IMG/VR virus record: IMGVR_UViG_3300044612_000348 | Span: 1-24,102 of that record | Source: a virus | Reading direction: 5' to 3' (one strand) | Length of the DNA: 24,102 nt | Notes under the pieces: generated by a model | Databases searched by the model: none | What the model was told of the DNA's origin: nothing | Seen by the model: the letters and a program-made list of their open reading frames with translations, nothing else | Shown here: positions 3,973 to 5,532 of the stretch, piece after piece | Layout: the number at the start of each line of letters is the position of its first letter | Numbering within the stretch: position 1 is the first letter of the stretch | Program-made: the position numbers and the translations under genes

Positions 3973-3987
3973 ATATCGCCGGGATAT
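3973..3987. promoter_or_regulatory. Operator candidate, copy 1
   Basis: ATATCGCCGGGATAT is a near-palindrome with ATAT arms around a GC core. Compared as reverse complement, it matches the second copy at 4063-4077 in 13 of 15 bases. On the minus strand it lies just after a perfect TTGACA hexamer (complement of 3987-3992), in the spacer of a possible leftward promoter for the recombination operon. I see no convincing -10 for that promoter. The likely binder is the ribbon-helix-helix protein encoded at 4091, which is inference. Confidence 0.5.
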
Positions 3988-4037
3988 GTCAACACCCCAA
4001 ACCAAAATAATTTTAGGTGCTATCAAATTGGCAAGCG

Positions 4038-4067
4038 TTGACGGCGTTACGGTCTTAGAATTATATT
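4038..4067 (+). promoter_or_regulatory. Candidate rightward early promoter
   Basis: TTGACG at 4038-4043 and TATATT at 4062-4067 are separated by 18 bases. Each differs from the sigma-70 consensus at one position. The -10 box lies inside the second operator copy, which would allow repression by a bound regulator. It would drive the ribbon-helix-helix gene and the whole early operon, whose first ribosome site begins about 13 bases after the -10 box. That leaves a very short leader. Confidence 0.5.
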
Positions 4068-4077
4068 CGGGCGATAT
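4063..4077. promoter_or_regulatory. Operator candidate, copy 2
   Basis: ATATTCGGGCGATAT is the inverted partner of the copy at 3973-3987 (13 of 15 matching as reverse complement), with an exact 9-base inverted match (3972-3980 against 4070-4078). It covers the candidate -10 box of the rightward promoter. The two copies lie 90 bases apart, a distance compatible with either independent binding or looping. Confidence 0.5.
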
Positions 4078-4090
4078 ACAGGAGGGCGTT

Positions 4091-4270
4091 ATGAAGCAAG
4101 GCAAGATGTTTCTCATGCGTATGCGGCCAGAGGTAAGGCAGCTGCTAGACCAGGCGGCTGCAGAACAGCGTCGCACCAGGGTGTCGATTTTGGAAGAGCT
4201 GATACTGGAGGCCTACGGCAAGCGCTACCAGAGCACGCAGGATCGGCTGAACAAGCTGCTAGGTGCGTAG
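4091..4270 (+). CDS. Ribbon-helix-helix (Arc-like) transcription regulator
   Basis: This 59-residue protein has the ribbon-helix-helix plan. A short beta strand (KMFLMRM, residues 5-11) is followed by helix A (about 13-26) and a second helix (about 31-43, SILEELILEAYG). A short charged tail follows. Such dimers bind palindromic operators through the strand. The ATG at 4091 has a near-perfect AGGAGG site 5 bases upstream. The upstream in-frame ATG at 3986 was rejected because it lies in operator copy 1 and lacks a ribosome site. As first gene of the rightward operon, next to two operator-like repeats, autoregulation and control of the divergent leftward operon are likely. Confidence 0.8.
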   Translation: MKQGKMFLMRMRPEVRQLLDQAAAEQRRTRVSILEELILEAYGKRYQSTQDRLNKLLGA

Positions 4271-5532
4271 TGCGGTACTTGTCGGTGTGCTCTGGCATTG
4301 AGGCCGCGACGGTGGCGTGGCACCAGCTTGGCTGGGAGGCTGCAGGCTTTGCAGAGATTGAGCCTTTCCCTGCTGCTGTGCTGGCGCATCATTATCCAGC
4401 CGTCAAAAACCTTGGTGATATGACTAACTATAAGGAGTGGGATCTTGGAACAATTGACCTTCTGGTCGGTGGAACCCCTTGTCAATCTTTTTCCGTCGCC
4501 GGACTTCGCAAAGGACTCGCAGACCCAAGGGGCAACCTTGCCCTCGTCTATTGCGGGATTCTTGACCACTTTAGACCCAAGTGGTGCGTTTGGGAAAACG
4601 TGCCGGGTGTCCTCAGTTCAAACGGTGGGCGGGACTTTGGTTCCTTCCTCGGGGCGCTGGCAGAACTCGGGTATGGGTTCGCATACAGAGTGCTTGACGC
4701 TCAGTACTTCGGAGTGGCCCAGCGACGCCGTCGTGTGTTCGTTGTCGGATACCTTGGAGACTGGCGACCTGCCGCCGAGGTTCTTTTTGAGCCCGAAAGC
4801 GTGCGCGGGGATCCTGCGCCGAGCAGAGAAGCGCGGCAAAAAGTTGCCGGAACCCTTAAAGGTGGCTCTGGCAGCCGTGGCTACCCAGATCCCAGCGACG
4901 GAAACGGTGGAATGCTGACTATCGCCATGAGCTCTGGTCAAGCCGGTGCTGAGATCCGCATTGACGGCGGTGCGCCAACCCTGACCTGCCTGCATGAAGC
5001 GCCGATTGCTGCTGGCGCGTTGTGCAAGGAAACATTCAGCGGTGGAATGGGCGGGCGTCCTGATAGTGCGGCTGCTGCTCATGTTTTGCCCGTCGCCATT
5101 CAAGGCAACCTGATCGGGCGTAACGCCGGCGGCCCCAATGGTGTTGGCGCATCAGCTGACGGCACGATGTACACGCTGACCAAGGCTGATGTGCATGGTG
5201 TAGCGCAGCCAACTGCTGCCTTTAAGTGGAACATGGGCGCAAAGGCTCACGGCATTGGCTATGCCGAGGAGCAGTCGCCGACTTTCGACACAAAGCCGGA
5301 CTCCATAGCCGTTATGGCGCAGATGGCCGTGCGCCGCCTGACTCCGGTTGAATGCGAGCGGCTGCAGGGCTTCCCAGACGGCTACACCAACATCCCTTGG
5401 CGCAAGCAGCCGGAGTCGCCTGACGGCCCTCGCTACAAGGCGCTGGGCAACAGCATGGCGGTGCCTGTCATGGCGTGGATTGGCCGCCGCATAGCGATGT
5501 ACAAAATACAACAGTCACGGATGGTTGCATGA
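4270..5532 (+). CDS. Orphan C5 cytosine DNA methyltransferase
   Basis: This 420-residue enzyme transfers a methyl group from S-adenosylmethionine to carbon 5 of cytosine in DNA. Motifs in order are: I, SVCSGIEAAT (5-14); IV, GGTPCQSFS with catalytic Cys71; VI, WENVPG (108-113); VIII, QRRRRVF (151-157); IX, RRLTPVECERLQGFP (355-369); X, GNSMAVPV (about 392-399). The stretch between VIII and IX, where the target-recognition domain should be, is unusually glycine-rich. The GTG start at 4270 uses the last base of the preceding TAG. No restriction partner is nearby, so protection from host restriction is the likely role. Codons in 4445-4918 differ sharply from the rest because a second frame is open there. 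Confidence 0.93.
   Translation: MRYLSVCSGIEAATVAWHQLGWEAAGFAEIEPFPAAVLAHHYPAVKNLGDMTNYKEWDLGTIDLLVGGTPCQSFSVAGLRKGLADPRGNLALVYCGILDHFRPKWCVWENVPGVLSSNGGRDFGSFLGALAELGYGFAYRVLDAQYFGVAQRRRRVFVVGYLGDWRPAAEVLFEPESVRGDPAPSREARQKVAGTLKGGSGSRGYPDPSDGNGGMLTIAMSSGQAGAEIRIDGGAPTLTCLHEAPIAAGALCKETFSGGMGGRPDSAAAAHVLPVAIQGNLIGRNAGGPNGVGASADGTMYTLTKADVHGVAQPTAAFKWNMGAKAHGIGYAEEQSPTFDTKPDSIAVMAQMAVRRLTPVECERLQGFPDGYTNIPWRKQPESPDGPRYKALGNSMAVPVMAWIGRRIAMYKIQQSRMVA
4445..4918 (+). CDS. Candidate overlapping gene inside the methyltransferase gene
   Basis: A 157-codon frame, shifted +1 from the methyltransferase, starts at TTG 4445. TAAGGAG lies at 4431-4437, 7 bases upstream, which is near-ideal Shine-Dalgarno placement. 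The product has a Ser/Thr/Pro-rich N-terminal part, a central SSGRWQNSGMGS stretch, an SLSDTLETGD segment and a basic end (RFFLSPKACAGILRRAEKRG). I recall phage hypothetical proteins ending in this way, but could not check. In the methyltransferase frame, 14 of 16 leucines inside the overlap use CTT or CTC and only 2 use CTG. Downstream of the overlap none of 10 use CTT/CTC and 8 use CTG. The frame ends where the first downstream CTG-A creates TGA. Function unknown; a non-functional overprint remains possible. Confidence 0.55.
   Translation: MEQLTFWSVEPLVNLFPSPDFAKDSQTQGATLPSSIAGFLTTLDPSGAFGKTCRVSSVQTVGGTLVPSSGRWQNSGMGSHTECLTLSTSEWPSDAVVCSLSDTLETGDLPPRFFLSPKACAGILRRAEKRGKKLPEPLKVALAAVATQIPATETVEC

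Follow-up and report, generated by a model that had tools for sequence, protein, structure and literature searches.

A widespread, overlooked gene nested in the +1 frame of phage C5-cytosine methyltransferase genes likely encodes a second subunit of the enzyme

Our results show that the C5-cytosine DNA methyltransferase gene of a phage sequence from the IMG/VR database encloses a second gene in its +1 frame, and that this nested gene is widespread and has been overlooked. Its product, as judged from sequence comparison, is likely a beta-type subunit of the methyltransferase within whose gene it lies. The window, i.e., the whole stretch of DNA that was analysed, is a 24,102-base record, and genes across it (a large terminase, a phrog_332 head-tail adaptor, a head protein and a tail protein) suggest a tailed phage of podovirus-like type.

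Frame 0 of the methyltransferase gene (alpha) contains motifs I, IV (PCQ), VI (ENV), VIII, IX and X, the set that marks a C5 methyltransferase. A sequence-only reading of the window had proposed that a +1 frame of 157 codons runs from a TTG to a TGA inside this gene and that TAAGGAG stands 7 bases ahead of the TTG; both are present at the positions listed in Table 1, and the translation ends as had been claimed (...ACAGILRRAEKRG...). The +1 frame is shut upstream of the nested gene by a TGA, and most relatives share the equivalent stop. Directly upstream of the methyltransferase, a small ORF (3986-4270) matches the Arc-like repressor family PHROG 3431.

Table 1. Features of the methyltransferase locus in the window
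Feature	Position	Strand	Basis or remark
C5-cytosine DNA methyltransferase, frame 0 (alpha), 420 aa, GTG start	4270..5532	+	Pfam PF00145 DNA_methylase, E 3.6e-53; alignment with 52 relatives
Frame-0 Met codon ATG of 'GDMT'	4420..4422	+	overlapping TGA 4421-4423 ends the +1 frame ahead of the nested gene
Shine-Dalgarno TAAGGAG of the nested gene (AAGGAG 4432-4437), 7 nt before the start	4431..4437	+	sequence; kept in relatives
Nested gene, +1 frame, 157 codons, TTG start, TGA stop	4445..4918	+	ORF list; openness in relatives; +1-specific conservation
N-terminal part of nested product, predicted disordered, overprinted on motifs IV-VIII	4445..4740	+	AlphaFold pLDDT mostly <60
Conserved C-terminal core of nested product LSDTLETGDLPPRFFLSPKACAGILRRAEKRGKKLPEPLKVALAAVA, helical hairpin of residues 117-130 and 136-147	4742..4885	+	pLDDT, invariant residues, hhalign
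Alpha motif IX RRLTPVECERLQGFPD	about 5332-5379	+	frame 0
Alpha motif X ALGNSMAVPV	about 5440-5469	+	frame 0

The relatives were gathered as 80 viral loci by similarity of the main frame only, thus the second frame played no part in their choice, and 66 distinct methyltransferase genes were analysed. Synonymous codons shuffled within each gene, with the protein and its codon usage preserved, served as the null (100 shuffles for openness). The +1 frame is open across window codons 63-205 in 65 of the 66 relatives, against a mean of 0.98 and a maximum of 3 in the shuffles. Over codons 61-200 the 66 genes contain a single +1 stop in all, compared with about 310 in the shuffles, while outside this interval +1 stops occur at roughly the expected frequency or above it. 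Only in codons 51-200 is the +1 translation more conserved than in the shuffles (z about 30-95), and at codons 181-200 its identity is.88/.59 versus.51/.20 for frame 0, i.e., the nested protein is better conserved there than the enzyme. Base diversity at the three frame-0 positions of codons 161-200 is.41/.26/.20, with position 1, the wobble position of the +1 frame, the most variable; this order is the reverse of that in the rest of the gene, and the least variable position is the frame-0 wobble. The internal ribosome site is retained as well, since a Shine-Dalgarno sequence of at least 5 nt plus a start codon was found in 58 of the 66 relatives versus 20% in synonymous shuffles. AAGGAG or a near form, then ATG or TTG, occupies the equivalent position in nearly all members of this set, and one subgroup starts with ...AAGGAGTGGAATT TAA ATG.

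The negative controls were clean. In 61 distinct canonical phage C5 methyltransferases (L343-L423) we counted 383 +1 stops versus 399.5 expected, and none of the 61 was open; 12 others had 97 +1 stops versus 93.7 expected. The leucine codons of the window had been offered as a further sign, with CTT or CTC said to make up 14 of 16 within the overlap and none of 10 after it. The bias holds and the figures were slightly off, the counts being 13/16 and 0/9; the leucines after the overlap are seven CTG and two TTG, three of the five before it are CTT, and the comparison of the overlap with the rest of the gene gives a Fisher p of 0.0027. The second frame is thus open beyond chance, is under selection at the protein level and has its own start signals, as is characteristic of an overprinted gene. 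The openness, the ribosome site and start, the +1-specific conservation, the reversal of codon phase and the controls strongly support translation of a gene overprinted on the methyltransferase, as first proposed, and on these data we regard it as practically certain that the nested frame is a real gene.

The nested product was matched in 129 phage records (tblastn), and in the annotated ones that were opened the match sits within C5 methyltransferase genes in the +1 frame, dmt of phage P1 included. The best 80 loci from bacterial genomes, spanning Proteobacteria, Acidobacteria, Verrucomicrobia, Planctomycetes and others, carry the core in the +1 frame of a C5 methyltransferase, 36 of them as determined by script and the others by eye among the matches listed. 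The same holds by script for 80/80 Firmicutes-type viral loci, two of which have a frame-0 stop nearby. The nested frame is carried by hundreds of phages and prophages altogether, the former infecting Proteobacteria, Firmicutes, mycobacteria and cyanobacteria and the latter spread over many phyla, and among the loci whose frames were examined the product was never found away from a methyltransferase gene. The core consensus is LxxxLE...P.r(Y/F)(Y/F)LSxkACxGILrRAxxRgKxLPxxLxxAL. P1-like and Firmicutes-type relatives have a later nested start, mostly a purine run resembling a Shine-Dalgarno sequence followed by ATG. In P1 (L007) the ORF lies at about 2231-2701 of the locus within dmt, corresponding to about 66728-67201 of NC_005856.1, and is unannotated; of 5,426 complete E. 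coli genomes, 517 contain a match to the P1 segment, in most cases on a P1-like plasmid.

Some loci depart from this layout. In Pseudomonas abyssi (L162) frame 0 stops 70 codons past the core and the +1 ORF continues into motifs IX and X; because frame 0 ends early, the enzyme looks naturally split, or else reflects a sequencing error or a broken gene. The +1 ORF of a Geobacteraceae MAG (L144) also extends into motifs IX/X. A core of Faecalibacterium FP_Toutatis apparently in frame with the methyltransferase was rejected as a frame break within the enzyme. In Mycobacterium phage Thibault (L424, 17-1818) an HNH endonuclease gene splits the methyltransferase gene downstream of motif VIII, and gp104 is the annotation of the +1 core alone. 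The canonical C5 methyltransferase of Streptococcus phage Javan129 (L343, 1072-2302) is annotated as two separate ORFs, and in its relatives L345 and L348 the first ORF ends just past the YYLS segment.

The AlphaFold model of the nested product consists of about 100 poorly ordered residues followed by a confident helical hairpin (pLDDT about 88-97 in blocks 121-150). Searches of Pfam, NCBIfam and PDB sequences yielded no useful homologues, a fold search with the model gave no PDB match, and the notable matches in BFVD were limited to a methyltransferase and copies of the nested product, without any at E <= 0.001. The name 'methylase-associated X1' for this product was without support and was rejected; 31 of 38 members of the family match PHROG 16143. 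Profile comparison was more informative: the core aligned with the stretch that canonical phage C5 methyltransferases have just after motif VIII (RLKDILEdeVDEKYYLS), with an hhalign probability of 95.1 and a score of 36.7 over a match of 29 columns only, compared with 8.2 +/- 1.7 and a maximum of 14 for the column-shuffled segment. The nested protein had been called unrelated to the enzyme, an idea that this resemblance does not support. The window enzyme does not have the corresponding segment in frame 0, where other sequence stands. In the model of alpha the catalytic domain is folded, and pLDDT is about 30-45 over most of residues 190-340, the expected recognition domain; hypervariability of the region and the shallowness of the alignment may account for this low confidence. 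Sequence comparison establishes a real and conserved nested gene with its own start site and a core resembling a methyltransferase segment.

A second lineage of C5 methyltransferases, found in Paenibacillus phage Bloom and Lactobacillus phage Lc-Nu, also has a nested +1 ORF, which opens at the same place (L181 from Bloom, 1783-2487; L182 and L183; L184-L243); the Bloom annotation lists it as an overlapping CDS. The +1 frame is open in 40/40 distinct loci, chosen via the +1 product, versus 0.36 expected. The nested product of this lineage often has QLTLF at its start and a motif-IX-like LNPxWVExLMGFPxGWT at its end. Among 37 alpha ORFs, the motif-IX-like sequence is in the +1 frame in 21 and in frame 0 in one, and motif X is in frame 0 in 31. 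The 722 plasmid records matching the second-lineage nested protein (tblastn) were left uncounted, as weak ones may be shadows of conserved methyltransferase motifs. A third kind of C5 methyltransferase (MTVYYNEFDPNAADWL...), encoded by CDS 1267-2292 of a locus (L425) from Enterobacter hormaechei plasmid pTO42E, likewise contains an extended open frame in +1, with the motif-IX-like GGQLNPALPRWLMGFPISW at its end.

The N-terminal QLTLF resembles the ligand motif of the beta sliding clamp, the consensus of which is Q-aliphatic-x-[L/M]-[F/L] (PMC11139829). Such a motif occurs near the nested start in 23 of 42 members of the second lineage (class II) versus 1.0 in shuffles, in 8 of 62 members of the window class (class I) versus 0.4, and in 0 of 61 controls. 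Variants of it (QLTLF, QMSMF, QLTMF, QLDLF, QLELF) recur at differing nested starts in both classes. The window product begins MEQLTFW where other members carry QLTLF or QMSMF; QLTFW does not strictly fit the consensus, whereas many relatives do.

The resemblance of the core to the segment after motif VIII, together with a second lineage laid out like the two-polypeptide enzyme M.EcoHK31I, led us to propose a nested beta subunit. We hypothesize that the C5 methyltransferase gene of the window encodes two proteins: the enzyme would be translated in frame 0, and other ribosomes, guided by AAGGAG, would initiate internally at TTG 4445 and produce the 157-residue +1 protein. The bulk of the latter would be a disordered Ser/Pro-rich leader, and its functional end a helical hairpin equivalent to the piece that lies between motif VIII and the target-recognition domain in ordinary methyltransferases. 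As a nested beta subunit like that of M.EcoHK31I, it would bind the methyltransferase and complete the small, DNA-recognition domain. We infer that the nested protein is produced, that it binds the enzyme and that methylation requires it. The poorly modelled recognition region of alpha and the layout of L162 also speak for a subunit. This explanation as a whole, with two proteins from one gene and the nested one a beta-type subunit, appears to us a fairly probable one, and we lean, slightly less firmly, towards the subunit function of the product. The simplest account common to the lineages would be that the nested products are second subunits bearing pieces of the small domain, which for the window class is presumed. 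A bolder possibility, which we consider rather doubtful, is that the nested second subunits form an ancient family hidden in several phage and prophage C5 methyltransferase lineages. A piece of the recognition half would have shifted into the +1 frame where it overlies the catalytic half, and the N-terminal motif present in many members might tether the enzyme to the replication clamp, which would let phage DNA be methylated during copying.

Instead of a subunit, the nested protein could be a separate small phage factor, such as a regulator of the enzyme, an anti-defence or a clamp-targeting protein, that merely shares the locus, its likeness to a methyltransferase being a relic of its origin. 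Alpha of the window class retains motifs I-X, and the long disordered leader and the clamp-binding-like N-terminus of many members suggest contact with the replication machinery, both of which would suit such a factor. A free factor, however, would be expected to escape sometimes into a gene of its own, and in the loci with frames examined this one stays with the methyltransferase. The similarity of the core to the post-motif-VIII segment also favours an enzyme subunit over the anti-defence factor that had been suggested at first as one possibility; we consider a separate factor the less likely reading, although a regulatory role for the nested product is still conceivable.

Programmed ribosomal frameshifting would yield the N-terminus of the methyltransferase fused to the core and no separate protein, and it would suit a core that sits where canonical methyltransferases have their in-frame segment, in the same order. 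Yet the stop-free stretch of the +1 frame begins at about codon 61, long before the region after motif VIII in which a shift would be useful, it has a conserved Shine-Dalgarno sequence and start of its own, and the fusion would be without motifs IX and X, which makes this mechanism very improbable. Least credible of all is that no second protein exists and the conservation stems from the methyltransferase protein, from codon bias or from a DNA element, e.g., a homing-endonuclease target, as the HNH endonuclease genes at this locus in mycobacterial phages might suggest. All but one of the stops predicted by the synonymous-shuffle nulls are missing, canonical methyltransferases show none of these signals and the reversal of codon phase is a signature of protein coding, and at the level of sequence these tests refute such a reading; chance or codon bias as the source of the +1 openness is rejected by the same shuffles and canonical controls.

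Nearly 500 bases that code for two proteins at once and are so widely kept would rank among the most broadly distributed families of overprinted genes in bacteria, and the nested gene sits unannotated even in the well-studied phage P1. Should the product prove to be a subunit, assays of the enzyme alone may have led to a verdict of inactivity or a wrong specificity for many phage C5 methyltransferases, and it would become possible to test how a piece of an enzyme can pass into a different frame of the gene that encodes it.

A literature search of incomplete coverage did not find a description of nested genes in phage C5 methyltransferases. The closest relatives of the window arrangement differ from it in detail: P1 dmt (P1_gp069) has the same nested +1 frame and core, but is a bifunctional Dam/Dcm fusion with a later nested start. 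PHROG 16143 and Thibault gp104 (G1FGG9) are built from or match the +1 product and are labelled 'DNA methyltransferase' or 'hypothetical', and neither the overlap nor a function appears in these labels. BLOOM_57 of Paenibacillus phage Bloom (AXF40081.1) is, like the window product, a +1 ORF nested in a C5 methyltransferase gene, but its C-terminus differs, with WPTP repeats and a motif-IX-like LNPDWVECLMGFPIGWT. Among characterized enzymes, M.AquI is a two-subunit C5 methyltransferase split between motif VIII and motif IX, the two proteins forming one enzyme (PMC3404938). The L162 variant resembles this split, whereas alpha of the window is full length. The subunits of M.AquI are encoded by adjacent, not nested, ORFs. 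PMC3404938 describes M.EcoHK31I as a two-polypeptide C5 methyltransferase recognizing YGGCCR (Lee, Kam and Shaw 1995), with motifs I-VIII and X on the large subunit and motif IX on the small polypeptide. As the small polypeptide of that enzyme carries part of the small domain, so the nested product of the window carries the post-motif-VIII segment. The gene for the small polypeptide of M.EcoHK31I is said to lie inside that of the large subunit in another frame, and the window likewise has a second polypeptide inside the alpha gene in another frame. In most of the second lineage motif IX is on the +1 product as in M.EcoHK31I, whereas in the window it is kept in frame 0 (RRLTPVECERLQGFPD). Because alpha of the window class keeps motifs IX and X, the enzyme may be active alone, unlike the large subunit of M.EcoHK31I, and the role of beta may be to complete the recognition domain, or to modulate it, and not to restore an absent motif.
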